A stretch of DNA of 64,000 bases from a bacterium (GTDB lineage Bacteria > Armatimonadota > Zipacnadia > Zipacnadales > UBA11051): the NCBI GenBank assembly GCA_030604405.1, contig JAUVVY010000016.1, positions 1-64,000 on the forward strand, read 5' to 3'. The stretch's first letter is position 1. Every line of letters begins with the position of its first letter. A program made the position numbers and the translations under genes. The notes beneath the pieces are model-generated. The model made no database searches. It saw only the letters and a list, made by a program, of their open reading frames with translations, and was not told where the DNA came from. Below are positions 50,651 to 64,000 of the stretch, in pieces.

Positions 50651-51721
50651 ATGAAAATCGCCGACCGCTATCTGCTAAAAGAGATGCTGTGGCCATTTTT
50701 CGGCGGCCTGCTGGCATTCATTGTCATGGTCACCGGCCACATGCTCTTCCAGGCCGTTGAGGTAATGGTCGAGCACCGCGTGGAGTTGCGCGATGTACTG
50801 CGCTATTTGCTGTACCAGGTGCCGACGGCGGCGGTGCTGGCCCTGCCGGTCTCAACGCTGCTCGCCGTGGGCCTCGGCACCAACCGTCTGGCGGCCGACA
50901 ACGAGCTGCTGGCGATGCGCGCGGCGGGCATCAGCCGCTTTCGGCTGGTGCTGCCCGGCCTCTACCTCGGCCTGCTGGCGACCGGGCTCTCGATCGCGCT
51001 CTATCACAGTATCGTGCCGTGGGCTGAGGGGCGCGGCGACGTCCTTATCAGGGAAATCGCCTTCAGCCGCCGCGCGCTGCTGGTCCGCCCCGGCCAGTTC
51101 GTCAATGCCGGCCACGGCTGGGTTTTCCTCGTGGATGACACTGATCCCGACACTGGCGCACTGAAATACATGCGCGTCTTTCACCACGACCAGCCCGACG
51201 GCTTTCCGGTGCTGTTTGTCGCCAAGTCCGGACGGCTCGATGACACCAGCATCTATTTCGACCGGCCGATGTTCTACGCGATCACGCCCAAAGACGAGCC
51301 TACCACCGGAGACGCCTCGGAAGGCTTCGTCAATCTCGCCGAAGTCAGCGCGACCCTGTCGCCCAAGTCCAGTAAGCTACAGGCGATGACCTTCGACCAG
51401 CTTCTGGCCGAAGCAGACCGGATTCAGGAACAAGGCATGTCCGGCTACCGTCAATATCTTGTCGAGTTTGACAAGCGGATGGCCCTGGCTTTTTCCTGTC
51501 TGCTCTTTGCGCTGTTGGCCGGGCCGATCGTTGGCGCCTTCGGCCATACCCAGAGTCTGGTGGGCCTGCTGGCGACGCTGCTCGTCGTATTCGTCTATTA
51601 TGTGCTGATGTTGTGGCTGCAGATGCTGGCGGAGGCGGCGATCTTGCCCACTTTCGGCGTTTGGTTTCTCAACATCCTGGTTGCACTTGTCGCGTTAGGG
51701 TTACTATGGCGGCAAAGGTGA
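50651..51721 (+). CDS. LptF/LptG-family lipopolysaccharide export permease
   Basis: A 356-residue protein with the YjgP/YjgQ pattern: DRYLLKEMLWPFFGGLLAFI and two N-terminal membrane spans, ELLAMRAAGISRFRLVLPGLY (the coupling-helix region), a periplasmic beta-jellyroll (about 125-265) and three C-terminal spans. It would pull lipopolysaccharide out of the inner membrane with LptB. Only one permease is here; in enterics LptF and LptG form a heterodimer, so a second gene elsewhere or a homodimer is needed. The next gene overlaps it by 16 nt. Confidence 0.87.
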   Translation: MKIADRYLLKEMLWPFFGGLLAFIVMVTGHMLFQAVEVMVEHRVELRDVLRYLLYQVPTAAVLALPVSTLLAVGLGTNRLAADNELLAMRAAGISRFRLVLPGLYLGLLATGLSIALYHSIVPWAEGRGDVLIREIAFSRRALLVRPGQFVNAGHGWVFLVDDTDPDTGALKYMRVFHHDQPDGFPVLFVAKSGRLDDTSIYFDRPMFYAITPKDEPTTGDASEGFVNLAEVSATLSPKSSKLQAMTFDQLLAEADRIQEQGMSGYRQYLVEFDKRMALAFSCLLFALLAGPIVGAFGHTQSLVGLLATLLVVFVYYVLMLWLQMLAEAAILPTFGVWFLNILVALVALGLLWRQR

Positions 51722-54117
51722 GGTTACAGCGTGAGGCTGCTGGCGCATCGCTGGCGCGCAGTCATCTTGCTGCTGCGCTGGTGCTGCTGGCACTCGTGCT
51801 GTATTTTTCAGCTTGCCCCGTGACTGTTGCCGCCGACTCCCAGTCCGATGCCTTCTCCGAGGCGATGCAGCCGCTTGCACCGCCCGCCAAGCAACAGCCG
51901 CCTTCCCAGCCGCCGCCCGAAACGCCCCCCGAAACGGAGCAGCCCGAGCCGACCACGCCCCCGGAGGCGGGCCCGCAGCAGCCACCCTCTGAACCGCCCG
52001 AGCCATCCGCGCTGCCTGAGCCATCCCCTGACAGCGAGGTCATTTCGCTGCAGGCCGATGAGCTGTACTACACCTCCGAGGGTACGCAGGCCTCGGGCAA
52101 TGTGGCCGTCGGGTATCAGGATTACCGGGCCTCTGGCGAGATCCTCGACATTGACAAGGCGCGGGTGTGGATCAAGCTGCGCGGCGATGTGGTCATGACA
52201 AGCTCCGACATGCTGACCACCGCCGACAATCTGGAGCTTAATCTCGACACCGAGCACTGGCACGCCTTGGACACGCGGACGAAGGTGGAGCCGGCGTTTT
52301 TTGAAAGCGGCGTGGTGGAGCCGCTTTACCTTGACGGCCGCCACATTCATGGCCGCCCCGGGCAGATGGAGGTCGACTCCGGCCGGTGCACTTCCTGTGA
52401 CCTGCCGCACAAGCCGCACTATTGGCTGCAGAGCTCACACATCAGACTCGAGCCGGAGGAGTATGTGGTGTTCAGAAAGCCCACGCTGTACCTGCTCGGC
52501 CACCGCATCTTCAGGTACCCCTGGGACTTGCGCCTGTCTTTGCGGCGCCATACCAATCGCTTCCTGCCGGAGGTCGGCCAGAACGAGGTCGAAGGCTACT
52601 TCGCCAAGTTCGCCTACCTGTACTTGCTCAATGAACAGAACTCCGGAGTCCTGCGTCTGCACTTAACCCAGAAGCGCGGGACCGGTTACGGCTTCGACCA
52701 TGACTTCGACTTCGGACCCAACTACGGCGATTTGCGTTTCTTCGCCGAGCCGTCGCAGGGAAGCTGGTCCGGCAGGCTCAGCGATACTCACCAGTTCTCG
52801 GAGGGCTTCACCGCCGACCTCAGCAGCAACATCCAGCGCTACAGCGGCTACGGCACCGGCTCCACATCTCTTTCCAACAACCTTACCTTCCGCAACCGCT
52901 CGACTGACGGCCAATCGCTGGTGGGCTTTCAGCACTCGACCATGAAGAGCGCGTACAGCACCAACAAGCGGCTGACTGTGAACATGACCCACCGCCAGCA
53001 GGCCTCGGAGGACTATAGTTGGGAGGTGCGCAATGTAATGCGTCGCAACGACTACCGCGCCGATCAGCATCCCGACGAGGAGTTGAACAGCGAGTTTCGT
53101 CTGCGCGGTCGCGAGCGCAGTTACGATTGGGAGGCCATCACCAGGAAGCGTTATGATCTCGACGGTAGCGCCTACACCGGCGACGACAATTTCTATTCAC
53201 TCGATTATTTGCCGGAGCTGCAGATGAACACCGACACCTCGCGGCTTGGCGGCTATCGGCTACTTGGCAGGGCGCGGGTACGGGCCAGCCTCAACCTCGG
53301 CAGATTCAAGCAGCAGCCGGAGAACGTCGGCGTATCGCGAGCCGCAATGGACATATCGCTGCCCGGTCACAGCCGCAGCATCGGCGGCAGCAAGACACTG
53401 CACAACAGCCTGCGGTTCCGCCAGCAATTTTTCAGCGACGGCTCGGCACAGTATTACACTAATTTCCGCACCGAGCTGCGCGGCAGGTGGGGCCACACCT
53501 GGGACCACCGCTGGAGCTATAACTTCGGCTCCTCTCACGGGTATTCTCCGCTGCGGCTGGGATATGCGGGAAGAAGCAGTTATCTGAACTTCCAGGCGGT
53601 GCGCACGGTGCGGGACAAGATGCGCATTGACGTGGGCAGCGGCTACGATTTTATCAATTACTATTATCGGGACGCGACCTTCCGCGGCCAGTTCATGCTT
53701 GCCCCTGACAGCCGCCTGGAGCTGCAGACCAGCTACAGCCTTGACCGCGGCCAGTGGCGGCCGCTTAATGTCAGGTGGCTGCGCGCAACTGACAACTGGT
53801 ACTCAGCGATAACTTCGTATTATGATCTAGACAGCAACAAGCTGACGCGCGCGACTTCAGAGATTAACTGGCGGGTTAACAAGCTGTGGCATATTGATGT
53901 ACTGGCCGGCTATAGCGGCTACACGCACAAGCTGGATCAATTCGAGGTCCGGGTGCTGCGCGATCTACACTGCATGTTGGCATCGGTGACGTATAATAAG
54001 GAGCTGAGCGAGTTCAGGATCAACGTCGGGATCAAGGCGTTTCCTTCTAACGAGCGGGTATTTGGGGTAGGTGCTGGCGGCCCGCGCTTCGAAAGTACAT
54101 TCGGGCAGTATTACTAA
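51706..54117 (+). CDS. lptD: LptD-like outer-membrane lipopolysaccharide assembly protein
   Basis: An 803-residue protein with a signal peptide (LAAALVLLALVLYFSACPVTVAA), a proline/glutamate-rich linker (residues about 55-110), an OstA/LptA-type beta-taco domain (LQADELYYTSEGTQASGNVA onward, about 112-225) and a long C-terminal beta-barrel rich in alternating aromatic and polar residues. GRCTSCDLPHKPHYWLQSSH is the conserved-looking cysteine-bearing junction of LptD relatives. Start ATG 51706 within the permease gene; a GTG at 51718 forming a GTGA overlap is the alternative. Position after LptF/G supports the role. Confidence 0.82.
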   Translation: MAAKVRLQREAAGASLARSHLAAALVLLALVLYFSACPVTVAADSQSDAFSEAMQPLAPPAKQQPPSQPPPETPPETEQPEPTTPPEAGPQQPPSEPPEPSALPEPSPDSEVISLQADELYYTSEGTQASGNVAVGYQDYRASGEILDIDKARVWIKLRGDVVMTSSDMLTTADNLELNLDTEHWHALDTRTKVEPAFFESGVVEPLYLDGRHIHGRPGQMEVDSGRCTSCDLPHKPHYWLQSSHIRLEPEEYVVFRKPTLYLLGHRIFRYPWDLRLSLRRHTNRFLPEVGQNEVEGYFAKFAYLYLLNEQNSGVLRLHLTQKRGTGYGFDHDFDFGPNYGDLRFFAEPSQGSWSGRLSDTHQFSEGFTADLSSNIQRYSGYGTGSTSLSNNLTFRNRSTDGQSLVGFQHSTMKSAYSTNKRLTVNMTHRQQASEDYSWEVRNVMRRNDYRADQHPDEELNSEFRLRGRERSYDWEAITRKRYDLDGSAYTGDDNFYSLDYLPELQMNTDTSRLGGYRLLGRARVRASLNLGRFKQQPENVGVSRAAMDISLPGHSRSIGGSKTLHNSLRFRQQFFSDGSAQYYTNFRTELRGRWGHTWDHRWSYNFGSSHGYSPLRLGYAGRSSYLNFQAVRTVRDKMRIDVGSGYDFINYYYRDATFRGQFMLAPDSRLELQTSYSLDRGQWRPLNVRWLRATDNWYSAITSYYDLDSNKLTRATSEINWRVNKLWHIDVLAGYSGYTHKLDQFEVRVLRDLHCMLASVTYNKELSEFRINVGIKAFPSNERVFGVGAGGPRFESTFGQYY

Positions 54118-54908
54118 TGGAGAACAACTGCATGCACTGTATCACACCGAGACCGATCGCTGCTCTGACGCCTTTGTCGCGTCGGGTATGCGCGCGGTTG
54201 CTGATGCTCGCACTCGGCTTGTGTCTGCTGGCTGTGCTGGTTGAGCCTGTGCTTGCAAGCCCAAGCGATGATGCCGCGCTCAGCCGGCGCCCATCCAAGC
54301 AGGCCATCAGGCAGCAACTCGATGAGATACTCGCCCAGGATGAGTACCAGACCGAGGAGCAGCCGGAGGCGTGGTGGTTCAAGCCGATGGTGGCGGCCAT
54401 ACGCTTTCTTGGCAAGCTGCTCGAGCGCGTCTTTCGGGCCCGTGATGTGCTCTATGTGGCTTACCCGCTGGTGTTCTGGACGGTTGTCGTGCTGCTGACG
54501 GCTATCGTGATCGGCATTCTCGCGCACATCTATATGACCCTGACCGGCGCTTTCGGAAACGGCCGTTCGCGTCGCGGCCCGGCCGGTGTTGAGCTGCCGC
54601 CTCGCCATTCGCCCGGCGACTTGCGCGCCCGCGCACGGCAGGCGGCTGAGCGCGACGATCTCGGGCAGGCAATCGTGTATCTCTACCTGGCCATTCTCCT
54701 CCATCTCGACCGCCAGGGCCTCATCGTCTTTAACAGAGCCGATACCAACCGTCAGATCCTGCGCCAGCTCAGCGGCGATGTGAAGCTTGTTGCCACTATG
54801 GAGCCGCTTACCAACACCGTTGATGCGATAAGCTACTCAAGCTACGTGCCTACAGACGCCGAGTTTGCCCGCGTCGAGCAGATCTCTGAGGTGGTAATGG
54901 CACGATGA
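54117..54908 (+). CDS. DUF4129-type membrane protein
   Basis: A 263-residue protein with two membrane segments (about residues 24-46 and 118-143). The C-terminal part RARARQAAERDDLGQAIVYL followed by FNRADTNRQILRQL is the DUF4129 signature, seen in proteins that lie beside MoxR and DUF58 genes and often transglutaminase-like proteins. Its ATG overlaps the lptD stop by one base, and its end overlaps the DUF4350 gene by 4 nt (ATGA). The function of the family is not established; an envelope role is inferred from context. Confidence 0.75.
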   Translation: MENNCMHCITPRPIAALTPLSRRVCARLLMLALGLCLLAVLVEPVLASPSDDAALSRRPSKQAIRQQLDEILAQDEYQTEEQPEAWWFKPMVAAIRFLGKLLERVFRARDVLYVAYPLVFWTVVVLLTAIVIGILAHIYMTLTGAFGNGRSRRGPAGVELPPRHSPGDLRARARQAAERDDLGQAIVYLYLAILLHLDRQGLIVFNRADTNRQILRQLSGDVKLVATMEPLTNTVDAISYSSYVPTDAEFARVEQISEVVMAR

Positions 54909-56218
54909 GATCCGGGGCGGCTGATTTCAGAATCGTTTTCTGGCTCCTGGTGCTGCTGGTCATGATATGCACTGGTATCTACCTGTCTGAGCGCAATTCC
55001 CAGCGCCCTGACACCAGGAGAGACCATGCCATCGATTCGTACAACCGCTGGGGCACACGCGCTCTGGGCGAGCTGCTGGAGAGCCACGGCTTCGGCGTGG
55101 CAAGCTGGCGGCAGCGCCTGAGCGGCCTCGGCCCGCAGCACCAGGCGCTGGTGGTACTGTCACCATCGCGCCATTTTGTGAGCCGCGAGATCGCACACCT
55201 GCTGAAATGGATTGAGGCCGGCGGCGTGCTGTTGGTTGCACCCAGCCGTCATACCTTGCTGGGCTCGTTCCTGGTCGAAACCGAAACCATCCCACCCGTC
55301 CAGCAGATACTCGGCCCCCTGGGATTGATGGTGCGCAGGGGCGGCGACCTGGCAGGCAAGGCCGTGGGCGTGACCGACAGCCCCCTGCTCAGGGATGTCG
55401 CGGCGCTCTATGTCCCCTCGCATCTGCGGCTGCAGACGCTCGGACAAAAGGCCCTTGCCGAAGCTTACCCGGAAGCGGCTAAGTCCGATGACCTCAAGCA
55501 ATATCTGCGCCCGCAACTGAAGTCCGAGGCTTTTACCGCCCTGGCCACACGCGACGACGCCTGCACAGTCGGCGTGATATCACACGGGAAGGGCTGGGTG
55601 CTGATTCTTGGCGAGGCGGATATGCTGGGCAATTACTGGATAAATCAGCAGGACAACGCGGTGCTGGCGCTCAACTTCGCCTACCTGAGCGGCGCCGAAA
55701 CCGTCTATTTTGACGAATACCATCACGGCCTGACATTTGTCTCCATTGCCGGTCAGGAGGCGCTGGCCTCGGGTGGGTGGCGGGTGGCGCTGATGGCGCT
55801 GGGGGCGGTGGGGCTTTTCTTCATCGGGCAGATGGTACGTTTTGGCGCGGCGGTGCCATTGCAGCGCCAGGCGCGGCGCTCCGCCCGCGAATTCGTCCGC
55901 GCCCTCGCCCAGCTTTACATGCAGGCAGGCGCAAGGACCTTTGCCCTACAGATCATTGCCAGGGCGCTGAAAAGGCAGGTGGCCGCTTGCGGCCGCGTCT
56001 CTCTCAGCCGCACCGGACCCGACGCAGACAACCACCATCTGGCCCAGCGTTGTGCCGACCTCAACCCATCTGTAAGCGCGGCGACATTGAGTAGTCTTCT
56101 CGACCGCCTCGATGCCGCTGCACAGGCCGGTCGCCGCCTTAGCAACGGCGAGTTCGTCCGCCTCAGCCGGGCGGCGACGGCTATGGAAAAGGAGCTTCCT
56201 AAACGTGGAACAGACTAA
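54905..56218 (+). CDS. DUF4350-domain membrane protein
   Basis: A 437-residue protein with an N-terminal membrane segment (residues 9-26), a GATase-like/IFT52-like DUF4350 domain (DSYNRWGTRALGELLESHG, ALVVLSPSRHFVSREI, LLKWIEAGGVLLVAPS, and HGKGWVLILGEADML), and a second membrane segment near residue 300. The C-terminal third is cytoplasmic and helical. In other phyla DUF4350 genes sit between DUF4129 and MoxR genes exactly as here. It ends 14 nt inside the moxR reading frame, so all three are likely co-translated. Confidence 0.78.
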   Translation: MRSGAADFRIVFWLLVLLVMICTGIYLSERNSQRPDTRRDHAIDSYNRWGTRALGELLESHGFGVASWRQRLSGLGPQHQALVVLSPSRHFVSREIAHLLKWIEAGGVLLVAPSRHTLLGSFLVETETIPPVQQILGPLGLMVRRGGDLAGKAVGVTDSPLLRDVAALYVPSHLRLQTLGQKALAEAYPEAAKSDDLKQYLRPQLKSEAFTALATRDDACTVGVISHGKGWVLILGEADMLGNYWINQQDNAVLALNFAYLSGAETVYFDEYHHGLTFVSIAGQEALASGGWRVALMALGAVGLFFIGQMVRFGAAVPLQRQARRSAREFVRALAQLYMQAGARTFALQIIARALKRQVAACGRVSLSRTGPDADNHHLAQRCADLNPSVSAATLSSLLDRLDAAAQAGRRLSNGEFVRLSRAATAMEKELPKRGTD

Positions 56219-57167
56219 CAGCATTACCAGACAAGTTGCGCTGCAGATAAATGAGATGCTTTCCCGGGTCATCGCCGGCCAACAGCCGGTCATCGAGCAG
56301 ATGATCGTCGCCGTCATGGCCCGCGGCCATGCGCTGATCGAGGGCGTGCCGGGCACTGCCAAGACCATGCTGGTCAAGGGCTTGGCCATCTGTCTGGGCA
56401 GGGACTTTGCCCGCATCCAGCTCACCCCGGACCTGATGCCCTCTGACATTGTGGGAACTTACGTCTTCGACATGGAAAGCTCGACCTTCAATCTCCGCAG
56501 GGGGCCGATATTCACGGACTTTCTGCTGGCCGACGAGATCAACCGCGCGCCGGCCAAGACCCAGTCGGCTCTGCTCGAGGCGATGCAGGAGCGGCAGGTG
56601 ACCATCGAGGGCAACACCCAGAAACTCAGCGACGATTTCATCCTCTTTGCCACCCAGAATCCGATCGAGTATGAGGGCACGTATCCGCTGCCCGAGGCCC
56701 AGCTTGACCGCTTCAGCCTCAAGATAATCATTGACTATCCCTCGGAGGCAGAGGAGCTCCAGATCTTGCAGCAGCACCATCGCGGCTTTGATGACGCGGA
56801 CTTGACGGCGGCGGGCCTGGAGCCGATCGTTACTGCGCAGCAACTTGCCGAATGTCGGCAGCAGGTCCTCGGCGTCGAGGTCACTGACGAGATGATGAAA
56901 TATGTGGCCGACATAACCCGTTCGACGCGAGAACACGCGTCGCTGGTGCTGGGCTGCAGCCCGCGGGCATCGGCGCACCTTCTCAATGTGGCGAAGGTCG
57001 TCGCTGCGATACGCGGGCGCGGCTTCATGACGCCGGACGATGTCAAGGACATTGCTGCTGCGGCGCTGCGCCACCGCTTGCTGCTGCGCCCGGAGGCGGA
57101 GATAGACGGCCTGACCAGTGAGGACATCATCAGCGAAATCCTGTCCACAGTACCGATCCCGCGCTGA
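56205..57167 (+). CDS. MoxR-family AAA+ ATPase
   Basis: A 320-residue AAA+ protein. The Walker A motif is GVPGTAKTM, Walker B is LLADEINRAPAKTQSALLEA (with the MoxR-specific NRA), and sensor motif FATQNPIEYEGTYPLPEAQLDRF follows. MoxR proteins act as chaperone-like ATPases for cofactor or protein-complex assembly. The start is GTG 56205, 10 nt after AAGGAG; a longer frame reads back through the DUF4350 gene and is not used. A DUF58/VWA partner gene, usual next to moxR, does not follow; noncoding sequence does. Confidence 0.9.
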   Translation: MEQTNSITRQVALQINEMLSRVIAGQQPVIEQMIVAVMARGHALIEGVPGTAKTMLVKGLAICLGRDFARIQLTPDLMPSDIVGTYVFDMESSTFNLRRGPIFTDFLLADEINRAPAKTQSALLEAMQERQVTIEGNTQKLSDDFILFATQNPIEYEGTYPLPEAQLDRFSLKIIIDYPSEAEELQILQQHHRGFDDADLTAAGLEPIVTAQQLAECRQQVLGVEVTDEMMKYVADITRSTREHASLVLGCSPRASAHLLNVAKVVAAIRGRGFMTPDDVKDIAAAALRHRLLLRPEAEIDGLTSEDIISEILSTVPIPR

Positions 57168-57171
57168 GGGG

Positions 57172-57258
57172 ATCCCGTACGCAGAAAAGGCCTCGGGCTG
57201 CCCTTCGACGTTGCTCCCTTCGGCAAGCTCAGGGCGCACGCGGCAGGGCCTACGGGAT
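57172..57258. repeat. Intergenic palindromic element after moxR
   Basis: ATCCCGTA (57172-57179) and TACGGGAT (57251-57258) enclose a nested inverted segment with CCCTTCG and CAAGCTCAGGGC, the same CTTCGxCAAGCTCAGGG-type motif found near 31610. The downstream 57259-57333 includes a GC palindrome (CGGGTACCCG) and a short T-run near 57296-57300, possibly a weak terminator for the plus-strand operon. There is no gene here. Confidence 0.55.
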
Positions 57259-57333
57259 GCCTCACCCACGCCTCCAGCGCGGGTACCCGACGGGGTTTTT
57301 GGCGGAAGGCCGAGCTACGCGTTCGTGAGTGAT

Positions 57334-60300
57334 TCAGGCCAGCGGGATAATCCTGCTGGCGATAACTGAGAGGTCCAGCTTCCCCTGGCGGCTGAGTTTG
57401 CCCTCGACCAGCAGCACCGGGCTGGCATACAAATCCCGCCCGTAACGCTGGTAGGTGTGCTCGAATATGGCCGCATCCACCAGGCCCTTTTCATCCTCCA
57501 GGCTGATGAATATGGCGGTGCGCCCGCTGCGTGTGGGTGGCCGCGCTCTGGCCACTACAATCCCGGCCACCTTCACCCGGTCGCCGTCGCGATGGTTGTA
57601 AAGCTGCGTACTGTTGAGCACCCCCGTGCCATCGAGCTTCTCGCGCCAGAAGGTAAATGGATGCCGGCCAGTGCTGACGCCCATCAGCTTCAGTTCCAAG
57701 CCAATACGGCCATATTCGGTCTGCGGGTCAAGCTGTGGCAGCAGACCGAGCTTCTTGCTTTCGGTGAAGTCCAACTCGCGGGCGCTGTGGCGGCCATAGC
57801 GGTCGGCAACTGTGCTGCCGGGCATCGCTGCAAGGGTCCACAGTAGCTCAGGCACGCTCTGGCCGGTGAAATCGAAGGCGCCGACCAGTATCAGGTTCTC
57901 CACCACCGGCCTGGGCACGCTGGTGCGCTGGCAGAAATCCCGCAGCGACTTAAATAGGCCCTGCTTGCGCGCCTGCACAACTGACTGCAAGGCCGCCTGG
58001 CTCATCCCCCGAAACAGCCGCAGCCCGACGCGAATATTGCCGTCCTCGACGCTGAAACGCTCCTTGCTGCGGTTGACGCAGACCGGCAGAATGCTGAGGC
58101 CCAGCCGCTTTGCCTCCTCCGCCACCGTCCGCGACGGATAAAAGCCCATCGGCTCATTTGACAAGATGCCGGCCAGAAACTCCGCCGGATAATGCGCCTT
58201 CAGATATGCCGTCTGGTAGGATATCCTGGCGAAGCATGCCGCATGAGCCTTGTTGAAGCCGTAGGCGGCAAATCCGGCGATGGCATCAAAGATGCGGTCG
58301 GCGACAAAGCGGTCCACCCCGCGACTGATTGCCCCCTCGACGAATTCGCACCGCATGCTCTCCATGTCTTCGGCTGAGCGGCTGTGGGTCATCGCCCGCC
58401 GCAGCATGTCGCCCTGTCCGAGGGTAAAGCCGGCGATGGCCTGGGCGATCTGCAGCACCTGCTCCTGGTAGATGATGACCCCGAAGGTGCGGCGCAGTAT
58501 CGGCTCCAGGGCCGGGTGCAGGTAGGTGACCGGCTCGTGGCCGTGCTTGCGGCGCAGGTATGGTGTGATCATGTCGGACTGGACCGGGCCGGGGCGGAAA
58601 AGCGAAATGTTGGCGATGACTTCTTCGAACTCATTCGGCTGAGCGCGGCCCAGCAGGTTGCGCTGGCCGGGACTTTCCAATTGAAAAAGTCCTACGGTCC
58701 TGGTCGAGCGCAACAGGCGGAATGCCGCCTCATCGTCCAGGGGTATGGCCTCCAAATCCAGCCGCTTGCCGGTATGGCGCTCTATCTCTTCCAGGCAGTC
58801 TTCAATCGCGCTGTGAATCCGCAGGCCCAGGATATCCATCTTCAAAAGCCCCAGAGCCTCGACATCGTCTTTGTCGAAGCCGACGATGACGATCCCCTTG
58901 GCGGCCAATTCCAGCGGCGCGATGCTCGTCAGCGGCTGCTCGCTGATGACCAGGCCGCCGACATGCACGCTCAGGTGGCGCGGAAAGCCACTGATCTGCT
59001 CGCACAGCTCAAACAGCAAGCCCTTGTCAGAAAGATCAACCGGCGTTTCCCTGGCCTCGGGCAATTTCTCCAGCGCGTCCTGGACCTCCGATGCGCGGAT
59101 ATGCGGGAAGACCTCCGCCAGCGGCCCGATCTCCGCATCCGCGATGCCCAGGGCCTTGCCGATCTCGCGGATCGCCGACCGCGCGCGGAAGGTGTTGATG
59201 GTGCAGACCGCTGCCACATGCTCGGCACCGTAGCGCTCATACACATAGGCGGTCACCTCATCACGCCGCCGGGCGCAGAAATCAATATCAATATCAGGCA
59301 TGCCGCGCCGCTCGGCGCTCAGGAAACGCTCGAAAAGCAGGTCATGTGCCAGCGGGTCGGCCTGGGTAATGTCCAGCACGTAGCTGACCAGCGAATCGCC
59401 CGCCGAGCCTCTGCCGGTGGCGCGGATTTTCTGACTGCGCGCGAACCGCACGATATCCCATACAATCAAAAAATAGTCGCACAGCCCCTGGTCTTCGATA
59501 ATGCCGAGCTCGTGCTCCAGTCTTTTTCCCACGTCGGCTCTTATCTCGCCGTAGCGCCACTTGGCTCCGGCATAACAAAGCCGCCGCAGGTAGCTGCGCG
59601 CATCATCATCTTCCTGTGGCGGCGGATAGCGACCACAATTCTGCTTCCTGACAACCGCCAGATCAAAGCGGGGGAAGTGGAAATGCTCTAAATCAAGGTT
59701 GCAACTGCAGCGCCCGGCGATTTCAGAGCTGGCCTGCAGCGCCTCGGGCATATCGGTGAAAAGCTCCTGCATCTGCGCGGGGGACTTCAGGTCATACTCG
59801 CTGTTGATCTTGCGCTCCGGCTGCGGCTCATCAACCGACTGGTTGTTGTGGATGCACACGAGCATGTCCTGCAGGCGCGAATATTCCCGGGATACATAAT
59901 GCACGTTATTGGTGGCCACCACCCGCAGCCCGACACGACGCGCCAAATCGGCGAGCCGGTAGCGCAGCTTCTGCGCCGGCGGTGGCAGCAGATGGTTATG
60001 CAGCTCGATGTAGAAATTCCCCGGCCCGAACAGGCCCTTGTAGTATTGGGCGACGCGCTCGGCGTCCTGGCGATTGCCGGCCAGAAGCTGTTGGGCAATT
60101 TCCCCGCGCCGACATGCCGAAAGCACAATCAGATGCGAACAATGCCGCGCAAGATTCTCCTGCGAAAGCACCGGGTTGTCCCGGTCAACGCGCGCGTACT
60201 GCTGCGAAAAGGGCCGGGCCCGCTGCGCCGTCCCGAGATGCGCGGCGGTCACCAGCCGGCACAGGTTGCTGTAGCCCTCGTTGTTCTCTGCCAGCAGCAC

Positions 60301-60558
60301 AAGATGCGCCGGATATTTCAGCCCGGCGTCAGAGGCCGGCTCCACGGTCAGTTCCGCACCTATTATCGGCTTGATGCCATGCTTTTTGGCTGCCTGGTAA
60401 AAACGCACGGCTCCATAAAGCGCATCGTGGTCGGTAAGCGCAAGGGCCTCCATATCCAGCTTGGCGGCCGCCTCGGCAAGCGCCTCCACCGGCGCCGCAC
60501 CATCCAACAGTGAAAAGTTCGAATGAACGTGTAAATGGATGAAAGTCATGTCAGTCAT
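57334..60558 (-). CDS. dnaE2: DNA polymerase III alpha-like, error-prone DnaE2/ImuC type
   Basis: A 1074-residue C-family polymerase. The N-terminal PHP domain reads IHLHVHSNFSLLDGAAP and ALALTDHDALYG with histidines preserved. The catalytic centre includes GRGSAGDSLVSYVLDITQADP and GMPDIDIDFCARRRDEV; LFQLESPGQRNLL and GVIIYQEQVLQIA are further signatures, and the C-terminal OB region ends VEGKLSRQGKLDLSVIASRI. The length, close to 1050-1080 rather than about 1160, and the SOS-type promoter with DUF6504 upstream point to the translesion polymerase DnaE2/ImuC, not the replicative DnaE1. ImuB is not visible beside it. The ATG at 60558 overlaps the DUF6504 stop. Confidence 0.85.
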   Translation of the reverse strand: MTDMTFIHLHVHSNFSLLDGAAPVEALAEAAAKLDMEALALTDHDALYGAVRFYQAAKKHGIKPIIGAELTVEPASDAGLKYPAHLVLLAENNEGYSNLCRLVTAAHLGTAQRARPFSQQYARVDRDNPVLSQENLARHCSHLIVLSACRRGEIAQQLLAGNRQDAERVAQYYKGLFGPGNFYIELHNHLLPPPAQKLRYRLADLARRVGLRVVATNNVHYVSREYSRLQDMLVCIHNNQSVDEPQPERKINSEYDLKSPAQMQELFTDMPEALQASSEIAGRCSCNLDLEHFHFPRFDLAVVRKQNCGRYPPPQEDDDARSYLRRLCYAGAKWRYGEIRADVGKRLEHELGIIEDQGLCDYFLIVWDIVRFARSQKIRATGRGSAGDSLVSYVLDITQADPLAHDLLFERFLSAERRGMPDIDIDFCARRRDEVTAYVYERYGAEHVAAVCTINTFRARSAIREIGKALGIADAEIGPLAEVFPHIRASEVQDALEKLPEARETPVDLSDKGLLFELCEQISGFPRHLSVHVGGLVISEQPLTSIAPLELAAKGIVIVGFDKDDVEALGLLKMDILGLRIHSAIEDCLEEIERHTGKRLDLEAIPLDDEAAFRLLRSTRTVGLFQLESPGQRNLLGRAQPNEFEEVIANISLFRPGPVQSDMITPYLRRKHGHEPVTYLHPALEPILRRTFGVIIYQEQVLQIAQAIAGFTLGQGDMLRRAMTHSRSAEDMESMRCEFVEGAISRGVDRFVADRIFDAIAGFAAYGFNKAHAACFARISYQTAYLKAHYPAEFLAGILSNEPMGFYPSRTVAEEAKRLGLSILPVCVNRSKERFSVEDGNIRVGLRLFRGMSQAALQSVVQARKQGLFKSLRDFCQRTSVPRPVVENLILVGAFDFTGQSVPELLWTLAAMPGSTVADRYGRHSARELDFTESKKLGLLPQLDPQTEYGRIGLELKLMGVSTGRHPFTFWREKLDGTGVLNSTQLYNHRDGDRVKVAGIVVARARPPTRSGRTAIFISLEDEKGLVDAAIFEHTYQRYGRDLYASPVLLVEGKLSRQGKLDLSVIASRIIPLA

Positions 60559-60859
60559 GTACTGTGGCGACGCTCCAGTTGCCGGTGCTCTCGTCCTGGC
60601 ACAAATCCAGCGTCACTCCACAGGTGGTGATGACGCGGAAAAAGCGGCGATCGCCTTTGCCTTCCCACCACTTCCCGCGCCGCCGCCAGTGCCCGCCGAC
60701 CTGTCGAATTTCGTACAGCTTGCCGCGCCAGGTAAAGCGTCGGGGGAGGTCATATCCGGCAAAGAGCTCTGCTGCGTTCGGCGAAGCTTGCGTGTTACGA
60801 GATGAAGCCTCCGGAGTGGAGGGTAGTTTGTGCCTGAGTTGAAATTCGTGGCTTTGCAT
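60551..60859 (-). CDS. DUF6504-like small protein of the error-prone polymerase cassette
   Basis: A 102-residue protein starting MQSHEFQLRHKLPSTPEAS at the ATG at 60859, about 10 nt after AAGGGGG. The core PRRFTWRGKLYEIRQVGGHW, KWWEGKGDRRFFRVIT and LDLCQDESTGNWSVATVHD is the DUF6504 pattern (Trp-rich beta fold), a family found with dnaE2 and Y-family polymerases in many SOS cassettes. It overlaps dnaE2 by 8 nt and is transcribed from the LexA-type promoter. Its biochemical role is not known to me. A longer frame to 60919 starts inside the leader and is not used. Confidence 0.78.
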   Translation of the reverse strand: MQSHEFQLRHKLPSTPEASSRNTQASPNAAELFAGYDLPRRFTWRGKLYEIRQVGGHWRRRGKWWEGKGDRRFFRVITTCGVTLDLCQDESTGNWSVATVHD

Positions 60860-60909
60860 CTTGATTTTGCCCCCTTGTTTGCACAAATATATGCGCCTTT
60901 GCGTGCGCC

Positions 60910-60938
60910 ATTTTATCAAACATCCGTTCGATTGTCAA
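60910..60938 (-). promoter_or_regulatory. SOS-type promoter: LexA-like box inside the -35/-10 spacer
   Basis: Minus strand TTGACA (60938-60933), 17-nt spacer, TAAAAT (60915-60910). The spacer contains CGAACGGATGTTTG (60930-60917), which fits the Gram-positive/Cheo-box LexA consensus CGAAC-N4-GTTY. Repressor binding there would block RNA polymerase. The predicted start is near 60903, 44 nt before DUF6504. Confidence 0.75.
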
Positions 60939-61086
60939 GATAAAAAAAAGTTAGCTTTTAAGCACAATCTACAAGGACAAACACGTACACAAGATGAAAG
61001 CAACCGTAGCTATAACTCCAGCTCTATTTCGGCGAGAAATGTCGGCTGACGAGCGTTTCTGAATCACTCAAAGGAGAGAATTATCC

Positions 61087-62565
61087 ATGTCTCGACGCGT
61101 GTTCTTCTACGACGATCAGGACCTGGCCGCAAGGCACAATCTCAACCTGGTGTACGGCTCGGTGCGCAAGTTAGGCGTAGCGGACATGGAGTACCGGGAC
61201 TGCGACCAGGGCCGGCCCAATATCTTTTGTGGAAGTGTGGTGCCGCTGCCGCCAGGTGGCTACCGGCTGTACTACTCCTCCATAGCGCTGGAGGGGCTGA
61301 AGAATTTCCAGCTTGCTTTAGCTGAGTCGGCTGACGGCGTGACCTGGACCAAGCCGGACCTCGGGCAGATCCAGTATCACGACGGCGAGACCAACTGGAT
61401 TCTGCCGGAGGGCCTGACCGCCGAGCACAATCTCACCCAGCCGCAGGTGATGCTGCTGCCGGACGGCTCCTGGCGCATGTGGTTCTGGTGGCATGGCCAC
61501 GAATTCGGCCGCTGCATGTATGTGGCCGCCGCAAGCGATGACGGGATCAAGTGGCGGTGCATTGACCTGCAGATGCCGCATATCATGCACCCGTCGGATT
61601 GCGAACTGGGCCAGAACGCCCTGGTGGCCGGCCTGACCGATGCCAGTTCCGAGGACGAGTTCGGCGACCAGCGCACAATGGACTTCATGAAGGCCAAGCG
61701 GCTGCGCAGCAATGATGCGAATTTCGTGTATTACAACGAAGCGGACGGACTATTTGAGATGTACCAGGTGTGGCTGATACCGGTTGATGCAGCTACCGGG
61801 CGCATGACCCCGCACGACAACGCGCCGAGCGTGTTGCGCACCATTGCACGCCGCGAAAGCGCCGATGGCATCGTCTGGTCCGACCCGGAGATGTTGATTC
61901 TCGCCGATGAGCACGATCCGATGCACCAGCAGTTCTATTACCTGGCGGTGCACCGCGAAGGCGCCTGGAATATCGGGCTGCTGGGCAATTATCGCTGCTG
62001 GGAGCAGACGATGGACCTGGAGTTGTGCTTCAGCCGCGATACCCACCACTGGGTCCGGCCCCTGCGCGGTGGTTGGATACCCCGCGGCGGCGTTGACGAA
62101 ATAGACTACATGTCAATCTATCCGACCAGCCGCTTCATTGACGGGGGCGACACCTGGTTCGTGCTCTACAATGGCGGCAACATCAAGCACAACCGCAAGC
62201 TGCCCGAGGGCGTGACGGAGCGCCGTCAGGAGATCATGGCAGCCGAGGCGCCGAAGGGCCGCTTCGCCGGACTGAAACCGAGCGAGCGCACGGTCGGCAG
62301 TCTCATTCTCAAGCGCTTCAACCAGAGCGCCGAATGTATCACGGTCAATGGCGATATAAGGGGCCGCCTGCAGGCGGAATTGCGCGATCCCTATGACCGC
62401 CCGCTGCCCGGGTATGAACTCAATAGCTGTGTCCCGATCACCGGCGACTCGGCGTGCCACGTGCTGACCTGGGAGGGCGGCAGGACAAGCGCAGACTACC
62501 GCTACGATGTGGTAGGCTTGAGAATCGAGGTCGAGGACGGCACGATCTATTCAGTCGAAACCTGA
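61087..62565 (+). CDS. Five-bladed beta-propeller glycosidase-like protein (GH43/GH32 fold)
   Basis: A 492-residue cytoplasmic protein. Blades are recognisable by YRLYYSSIALEG, LAESADGVTWTKPDL, DGSWRMWFWWHGHEFGR, RRESADGIVWSDP and LCFSRDTHHWVRPLRGGWIPRGG; ESADGxxWxxP is the repeated propeller turn. Carboxylate residues for GH43-type hydrolysis cannot be assigned by eye. The last 80 residues form a C-terminal beta domain. ATG 61087 is 8 nt after AAGGAGAG. Gene-free 60939-61086 holds the divergent SOS promoter and no clear plus-strand promoter. Confidence 0.72.
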   Translation: MSRRVFFYDDQDLAARHNLNLVYGSVRKLGVADMEYRDCDQGRPNIFCGSVVPLPPGGYRLYYSSIALEGLKNFQLALAESADGVTWTKPDLGQIQYHDGETNWILPEGLTAEHNLTQPQVMLLPDGSWRMWFWWHGHEFGRCMYVAAASDDGIKWRCIDLQMPHIMHPSDCELGQNALVAGLTDASSEDEFGDQRTMDFMKAKRLRSNDANFVYYNEADGLFEMYQVWLIPVDAATGRMTPHDNAPSVLRTIARRESADGIVWSDPEMLILADEHDPMHQQFYYLAVHREGAWNIGLLGNYRCWEQTMDLELCFSRDTHHWVRPLRGGWIPRGGVDEIDYMSIYPTSRFIDGGDTWFVLYNGGNIKHNRKLPEGVTERRQEIMAAEAPKGRFAGLKPSERTVGSLILKRFNQSAECITVNGDIRGRLQAELRDPYDRPLPGYELNSCVPITGDSACHVLTWEGGRTSADYRYDVVGLRIEVEDGTIYSVET

Positions 62566-62568
62566 CCC

Positions 62569-62655
62569 GAAATTGGGGACAGTCACCCATTTCTCCAGAG
62601 GCGTACGAGTGGGACTTACAGAAATGGCAAGAAATGGGTGACTGTCCCCAATTTC
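62569..62655. repeat. 87-nt palindromic element, left copy
   Basis: Arms of 26 nt (62569-62594 and 62630-62655) are perfectly complementary: GAAATTGGGGACAGTCACCC then its complement, with a 35-nt loop. It starts 4 nt after the 61087 stop and abuts the stop codon of the 62656 gene. The loop is the reverse complement, with a few changes, of the loop at 63515-63555. Confidence 0.85.
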
Positions 62656-63471
62656 CTATTCTTGTCGCCATTCCGGCGGCTGCCACGAAAGCGCATGCAC
62701 CGAATACTCACCGCACCACTTGGCGTGGCCGTCACCGAACACAATATTGGCCCCGTTGTGGTGGCGGAAATCAAGCAAGTCGCGTCCGCCGGCAGCATTC
62801 CAGCCGCCGGTTGCATCAAAGGCAAGCGGCGTTTCACGCGGACTCGGTATCACTGCCATGGGCAGCATGTTCAAGCTGCCATTGTACGCGTACCCATTGT
62901 CTTGTTGCGGTGCGCTGGGGCATCTGAAAACTTCTCTATTCTTAATGTACGGGTACACTGCGTCACACCAGTTCTCCCGCATTGGCCAGACCTCGTAGTA
63001 GTCATTGGCATACATGTGCATGGCCAGACCTATTTGCTTCGTGTTGGACAGGCACGAGGCTTGCCTGGCCTTTTCGCGGGCTCTGCCGAAGACCGGGAAT
63101 AGAATGGCCGCCAGTATCGGAATAAACAGAATCATCAAGCCTGATAGGCAAATGCCAGCGATCGCCAGCTCCCGGCCACGAAGCCGCCCATCGCTTGAGC
63201 TAATCTGCGAAATCGCCAGAATGCCAAGCACCAGCCCCACCAGCCCCGTAAGTGGCCCCAGCAGGCCCAGTATCAATGAGGCGATCGCCAGCCCACTCAT
63301 ACGCGAGGGGTACTCGATTGCCGGCTCGGCTTTTGGCGGCTGCGGAGGTGGTGGCGGTGGCGGGAGTTGTGGTTCCGGGGTTGATGCGGCCGTGGCGGAA
63401 ATATCCGAGCCACACTGCTTGCAGAATCTGGCCTCCTCGGGATTCTCTGTACCACATTTTGGACATAACAC
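62656..63471 (-). CDS. Zinc-ribbon / DUF4190-like membrane / prepilin H-X9-DG fusion protein
   Basis: A 271-residue protein starting at GTG 63471, 8 nt after AAGGAGG. Order of parts: zinc ribbon (CPKCGTENPEEARFCKQCG, residues 3-21); proline-rich linker (about 33-45); two membrane segments of DUF4190 type (GLAIASLILGLLGPLTGLVG, about 58-110); then a prepilin-like helix FPVFGRAREKARQASCLSN and a DUF1559-type pseudopilin body ending RHHNGANIVFGDGHAKW. The pseudopilin region normally follows a type IV leader peptide; here it follows a membrane pair instead. The 87-nt palindromes flank it on both sides. The earlier in-frame ATG at 63510 lies inside the right palindrome and is not used. Confidence 0.75.
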   Translation of the reverse strand: MLCPKCGTENPEEARFCKQCGSDISATAASTPEPQLPPPPPPPQPPKAEPAIEYPSRMSGLAIASLILGLLGPLTGLVGLVLGILAISQISSSDGRLRGRELAIAGICLSGLMILFIPILAAILFPVFGRAREKARQASCLSNTKQIGLAMHMYANDYYEVWPMRENWCDAVYPYIKNREVFRCPSAPQQDNGYAYNGSLNMLPMAVIPSPRETPLAFDATGGWNAAGGRDLLDFRHHNGANIVFGDGHAKWCGEYSVHALSWQPPEWRQE

Positions 63472-63488
63472 TATCACTGCCTCCTTTT

Positions 63489-63575
63489 GAAATTGGGGAC
63501 AGTCACCCATTTCTTGCCATTTCTGTAAGCTCCACTCCTACTCCTCTGCAGACACGGGCGACTGTCCCCAATTTC
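63489..63575. repeat. 87-nt palindromic element, right copy
   Basis: Arms 63489-63508 and 63556-63575 pair with one mismatch, and the left arm is identical to the arm of the left copy over 26 nt. The loop resembles the inverted loop of the left copy (GCCATTTCTGTAAG block). It lies upstream of the fusion-gene start and 2 nt from the sialidase-like stop. Confidence 0.82.
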
Positions 63576-63577
63576 GC

Positions 63578-64000
63578 TCAGTCTTCGGCGTAGAACCAGT
63601 CAATGTCTATGCGGGCAACGTGCAGCCCATCGCGGGCGTGGTAGCTCATGATCGCCACATCGTCAATGAAGGTCACGCTCTGGTAGCCGTAGTCCTCAGT
63701 CCGGTCGCTGGCGATAGTGCGCTCGTTTTCCCAGGTCTCGCCGCTGTCGAAAGACAGCACCGACACCAGCGGATTGCGGCGGCCCTTGCCGTCACCGATG
63801 GTATTGCGAATCAGCAGCAGGTCGCGGCAGCGCTCACGCGGAATGCGGTGCAAGCTCAGGGCCGTGGCATTCGGCGGGGCGCTGAGTTCGGGCAGGACCT
63901 CGCCGTCGTACCAGGTCTCGCCATCGTCGGCGGAATAGGCCCGGCCCATATAGCCGCTGTAGGTGCGGAACATCATCAGCAGACGCCCGTCGTCGAGCAG
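63578..64000 (-). CDS. Sialidase-like beta-propeller protein, 5' end beyond window
   Basis: The C-terminal 140 codons of a minus-strand frame open to the window edge (LLDDGRLLMMFRTYSGYMGR). Two Asp-box motifs, SADDGETWYDG and SFDSGETWENE, and propeller strands GYQSVTFIDDVAIMSYHAR mark a BNR/sialidase-like six-bladed propeller. The catalytic N-terminal portion is not visible, so activity cannot be judged. It is the upstream neighbour of the fusion gene, separated by the right palindrome. Confidence 0.75.
   Translation of the reverse strand: MLDDGRLLMMFRTYSGYMGRAYSADDGETWYDGEVLPELSAPPNATALSLHRIPRERCRDLLLIRNTIGDGKGRRNPLVSVLSFDSGETWENERTIASDRTEDYGYQSVTFIDDVAIMSYHARDGLHVARIDIDWFYAED

Follow-up and report, generated by a model that had tools for sequence, protein, structure and literature searches.

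A 2026 survey (PMC12926913) describes a DnaE2-[ImuB-C] module in Arthrobacter alpinus and predicts a larger DnaE2-[ImuB-C]-PolY-RecA module, both in Actinobacteria only. Published models in the same source put ImuB-C, the C-terminal domain of ImuB, on the PHP domain of DnaE2. RecA-NT motifs in Y-polymerases have been described separately (PMC6511836). The 64,000-nucleotide stretch of DNA analysed here, called the window, carries on its minus strand a small DUF6504 gene followed by a dnaE gene, behind a promoter that has a LexA-type box in it. From the evidence of the sequences set out below, we consider it highly probable that a LexA operator within the spacer of this sigma-70-type promoter controls an imuB-C-dnaE2 operon, with the mutasome function proposed further on.

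The minus strand from 60938 to 60910 reads TTGACA-AT-CGAACGGATGTTTG-A-TAAAAT. A promoter scan finds a near-consensus promoter here, with a 17-nt spacer, 11 of 12 consensus bases and a TG ahead of the -10, and it is the sole match in 60500-61200. The -35 hexamer TTGACA is at 60933..60938 and the -10 hexamer TAAAAT at 60910..60915, while the operator CGAACGGATGTTTG at 60917..60930 takes up 14 nt of the 17-nt spacer, the TG of the extended -10 being its final two bases. Compared with the Gram-positive LexA pattern CGAACRNRYGTTYG, this 14-bp box has 0 mismatches. The sequence-only reading had placed a LexA-type box within the spacer of a TTGACA-17-TAAAAT promoter, and the sequence, the scan and the pattern match all bear that out. 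Because the box fills the spacer, LexA and RNA polymerase could not occupy the site together. An Rfam search of 54000-64000 gave no match.

The first gene of the unit encodes a standalone DUF6504 protein (PF20114, E = 4e-14) and the second a DnaE, the order in which the sequence-only reading had them. The program-assigned TTG start of the first gene, at 60919, cannot be the real one, as it falls within the operator. The real start is likely the ATG at 60859, preceded by a probable ribosome-binding site AAGGGGG (60870..60876, minus strand), and a G-rich stretch before the ATG is retained in several relatives. This gives a gene at 60551..60859 on the minus strand and a protein of 102 aa, with a conserved core at residues ~39-102. 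As to what DUF6504 is, PF20114 scores above its cut-off on the C-terminus of Novosphingobium ImuB and below it on that of Rhizobium ImuB, standalone DUF6504 proteins and ImuB C-termini match at E = 1e-7 in a profile comparison, and the Deinococcus deserti protein called a standalone ImuB-C in PMC8072749 is annotated DUF6504. Taken together, these matches identify DUF6504, at the level of sequence, as the standalone C-terminal domain of ImuB, and the operon then reads imuB-C-dnaE2. The predicted structure has a confident beta-strand core (pLDDT ~90); a fold search of the model against the PDB found no significant match, the best being monellin at E = 0.26 with a low TM-score, in keeping with the published statement that nothing in the PDB is closely related to ImuB-C (PMC12926913). 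In the literature searched, no paper names DUF6504. A second DUF6504 paralogue is encoded at L099:1486-1806 (G000:C19), and in relatives too (L098, L100, L101), adjoining a gene for a membrane-anchored protein that is isomerase-like by eye; it has no LexA box and was rejected as a regulon member.

The polymerase gene follows at 57334..60558 (minus strand), encoding a DnaE2-type, putatively error-prone C-family polymerase of 1074 aa. It shares the 8 nt at 60551-60558 with imuB-C, an overlap suggestive of translational coupling, and its product keeps the catalytic DIDID.

The boxed imuB-C-dnaE2 promoter is kept in all 6 of the family genomes that have the gene, with the box exact in 5 and one mismatch in 1. 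Four relatives (G002, G003, G005 and G006) have TTGACA-AT and the exact box before the DUF6504 gene, with TAnnnT one base downstream except in G002, and G001 has TTGACT-AT-AGAACATTTGTTTG at the matching position; the -10 is TATAAT or TAAAAT in G001, G003 and G005 and weaker in G002 and G006. In six genomes of the sister family f4 (G265, G268, G270, G271, G272 and G273) a DUF6504 gene is closely preceded by a spacer box, and in G265 dnaE2 follows the boxed gene. Farther out, families f43, f45 and probably f42 have a spacer box before a small DUF6504-like gene. At the loci L154-L161 from these three families the spacer LexA box is palindromic, and dinB comes after the small gene at most of the loci that were read. 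Within one phylum, ImuB-C thus seems to have different bypass polymerases as partners.

The sequence-only reading staked its case on the genome having a lexA gene and on other SOS genes carrying this box, and both turn out to be so. There is one lexA, and its product is canonical, with the DNA-binding domain, an Ala-Gly cleavage site (VAAGEPILA), a Ser/Lys dyad (GNSMINAG, ATVKRF) and a match to PDB LexA 3k2z at E = 9e-41. The scan upstream of lexA and recA that had been suggested as a check came out differently for the two genes: the box CGAACTTATGTTTG or a close variant is upstream of lexA in 7/7 family genomes, and recA has no box in its cinA-thpR-recA cluster or in the gap upstream. LexA control of recA is common in SOS systems but not universal. 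The sole Y-family polymerase gene (dinB, C27) has CGAACAGGTGTTTG upstream, and among the 6 family genomes where dinB was found its box is exact in 4 and has one mismatch in 1. A DEAD/DEAH helicase gene, boxed in 5 family genomes, has the arrangement TTGACAAT-box-ATATAAT, a layout close to that of the dnaE2 promoter in the window. Further boxed genes, in two genomes each, encode a DUF5131 protein (G000, G005) and an HD-domain protein (G003, G006). A literature search turned up nothing about LexA in this phylum. Gene content gives Armatimonadota as a guess for the phylum, on which the DnaE1 tree does not decide. The box had also been called a Gram-positive type in a diderm genome, and the presence of Omp85 is in line with a diderm; a box of this type is not exceptional in the phylum. 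By eye, an 834-aa ORF at 51613-54117 on the plus strand of the window resembles the LPS-assembly protein LptD/OstA; it has no Pfam match at 0.01.

Some other boxed loci are of interest in themselves. In G000:C17, the genes at L142:1934-3565, one for a DUF5131 protein and the other for a TcmP-like protein, correspond to PDC-M41A/B, a candidate defence pair in PADLOC, and sit behind a spacer-embedded LexA box, TTGACAT-CGAACATATGTTTG, with the box at L142:3594. DUF5131 is boxed in G005 too, and this candidate defence system may be under SOS control. In three genomes an isocitrate/isopropylmalate dehydrogenase gene is preceded by two back-to-back boxes separated by a single base, at L140:3448-3476 (G000:C57), L119 (G005:C133) and L111 (G003:C92). 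Finally, the product of L139:1643-2766 (G000:C63) is probably exported and combines a copper-amine-oxidase N-terminal domain with a staphylococcal nuclease and an Ada metal-binding domain; the box CGAACGTGTGTTTG of its gene comes directly after a TTGACA/TATAGA-like promoter.

The unit had been described as lacking an adjacent imuB. That part stands, and indeed no imuB was detected genome-wide, the single IMS match and the single IMS_C match both falling on the C27 DinB-type protein in an assembly that is 96.9% complete; what needs correction is that one ImuB domain is present, since DUF6504 is ImuB-C. A RecA profile search of the genome found RecA only, and no RecA-like ImuA. The C27 protein is of the DinB type, with its catalytic motifs SIDEAYLD and DLDAFF intact. 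It ends in LDRACDQIVERFGNGAI, matching the RecA N-terminus LDLALSQIHKQFGEGAV, and an equal score was reached in 0/5000 shuffles. Because dinB is on another contig from dnaE2, we infer the link between the two from the shared boxes and the RecA-like motif.

The mechanism that we propose runs as follows. In undamaged cells, LexA bound between the -35 and the -10 would block RNA polymerase. RecA filaments on damaged DNA would bring about LexA self-cleavage, and the promoter would then fire. The small ImuB-C would be made just ahead of DnaE2 from the overlapping frames, and is probably an adaptor that binds the DnaE2 PHP domain, a role proposed because that is where the published models put it. 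The separately encoded, LexA-boxed Y-polymerase with its RecA-like C-terminal motif, and RecA, probably complete the complex, which would bring DnaE2 to lesions for mutagenic bypass.

The operator of this family is one-sided, CGAAC-N4-GTTTG: of the 16 promoter-embedded boxes, 15 have GTTTG as their right half, which always faces the gene, whereas 14 of 17 promoter-embedded boxes from other families in the order end in GTTCG. Sites in orthologous promoters are not independent of each other, so the Fisher p of 1e-5 makes this asymmetry look more significant than it is. GTTTG puts TG one base before the -10, making it an extended -10, in the promoters of dnaE2 and in most of those of the helicase gene, and in the lexA promoters the final TTG of the box overlaps a TTGCAA-like -35. 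Since GTTTG supplies one or the other, our hypothesis is that the asymmetry may be a promoter constraint rather than an altered recognition by LexA. A bolder version, possible although we lean against it, is that the family has made a palindromic Gram-positive box into a one-way operator, a single element that governs repression as well as promoter strength and ties together a split DnaE2/ImuB-C/DinB/RecA mutasome scattered over the genome. The sister families offer a natural comparison of palindromic with one-sided LexA operators.

How far the box itself exceeds chance depends on how it is counted, and this bears on whether the palindrome might be the site of another repressor or a chance match, leaving the operon not damage-inducible. 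In the window, 0.18 matches to CGAAC-N4-GTTYG are expected and 3 are found, on 2 sites; 3 were reached in 0/100 shuffles. Genome-wide there are 14 matches against roughly 12 expected (scaled from the window's 0.18), which is no enrichment, and some of them fall within coding sequence; these counts are what the chance reading has in its favor. Hence it is the context that carries the weight. The promoter-embedded form TTGACA-N1-3-CRAAC-N4-GTTYG occurs 16 times in 7 family genomes and 56 times in 291 genomes of the phylum, where its reversed control has 0 and 7 matches respectively, and the intergenic, promoter-embedded sites precede lexA itself in 7/7 genomes. If 10 exact GTTTG-type sites were scattered at random over the 4.37 Mb genome, the probability that lexA, dinB and imuB-C-dnaE2 would each have one within 250 bp upstream is ~2e-10. 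Against this background we give the chance match or foreign repressor hardly any credence.

The class of the polymerase also has to be weighed, the alternative being a replicative or back-up replicative DnaE in place of an error-prone one. The NCBIfam scores are just under both cut-offs (988 vs 1002 bits for the DnaE1 model, 898 vs 939 for the error-prone model), so that the profile alone does not decide the class. Most PHP ligands are retained as well, the only change in the metal site being D to N in ATNNV, and G001 keeps the D. Most DnaE2 proteins have lost the PHP metal site, though not all have. These points could suit a replicative enzyme, but the genome has two DnaE proteins, and the other one, on contig C10, is a full-length DnaE1 in a 1177-aa frame with the QNSLF clamp motif and GPGRGSA, so the window enzyme is not the sole replicative polymerase that the sequence-only reading had allowed it might prove to be. 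The window protein has no C-terminal tau-binding domain (its OB domain runs to residue 1073 in a protein of 1074), no QxxLF clamp motif (ARELDF where DnaE1 has GQNSLF) and no replicative GPGRGSA motif. In two trees all sampled DnaE1 proteins are separated from it with 100/100 support, and it forms its own branch, apart from both the ImuA-ImuB-linked DnaE2 (DnaE2A) and the DnaE2 of the Deinococcus cassette. The published criteria for DnaE2 are absence of the CTD, an atypical clamp motif and co-occurrence with DnaE1 (PMC3919608); the window polymerase has all three, with the loss of the PHP site partial, and a replicative role is very improbable. A search for DUF6504 or a Y-polymerase in the neighborhoods of the DnaE2-query matches, which are mainly DnaE1/DnaE3 proteins, found none. 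A different sort of alternative leaves the box real and makes DnaE2 and ImuB-C a two-part enzyme without Y-polymerase or RecA, as in Arthrobacter alpinus. The operon contains these two genes only, as it would in that case, but the larger module accounts better for the sole Y-polymerase, with its LexA box and RecA-NT-like tail, and we regard the two-part enzyme as rather unlikely.

The preferred reading, an imuB-C-dnaE2 operon under LexA whose products act with the boxed Y-polymerase and RecA, can now be set beside the known systems. The ImuA-ImuB-DnaE2 cassette likewise has a LexA-controlled DnaE2, as predicted here, and DUF6504 is homologous to the ImuB C-terminus, but here neither an ImuB protein nor a RecA-like ImuA was found in the genome. 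In the E. coli recA promoter the operator is between the -35 and the -10, and repressor and polymerase are mutually exclusive; the dnaE2 promoter shares that placement, while the LexA motif, CTGT-N8-ACAG in E. coli, differs. The Gram-positive box GAAC-N4-GTTC of Bacillus subtilis and Mycobacterium (PMC3323433) has the identical half-site and spacing, and what sets the family apart is its GTTTG right half. The D. deserti cassette also has imuB-C directly before dnaE2 and SOS control, which we infer here, and its ImuB-C is a DUF6504 protein of 80 aa; the operon here is without lexA and imuY, the catalytic motifs of the Y-polymerase are intact rather than predicted inactive, and DnaE2 is on another branch. 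An Abditibacteriota plasmid, AP024153.1, has at L229:2407-8478 a lexA, two hypothetical genes (one of 418 aa), an ImuB-C-like gene and dnaE2, an arrangement resembling the Deinococcus cassette, and no promoter site matching CGAAC-N4-GTTYG was seen in it.

Close, too, is the likeness to the predicted DnaE2-[ImuB-C]-PolY-RecA module of Actinobacteria. Its parts are present, with DnaE2 beside a standalone ImuB-C and, at a separate locus, an intact PolY with a RecA-NT-like motif, no imuB or RecA-like imuA being detected; judged by sequence, they match that module. The differences are that the uncultured lineage here bears Omp85 and that the Y-polymerase is encoded apart, sharing the LexA box. The mechanism is ordinary SOS control of a familiar design. 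What is new is the wider taxonomic range of the DnaE2-[ImuB-C] module, the recognition of the operon's DUF6504 as ImuB-C, and the one-sided operator. If so, this type of mutagenesis enzyme extends beyond Actinobacteria and parts at separate loci can share one damage switch, while DUF6504 gains a clear identity together with a test system of few parts.
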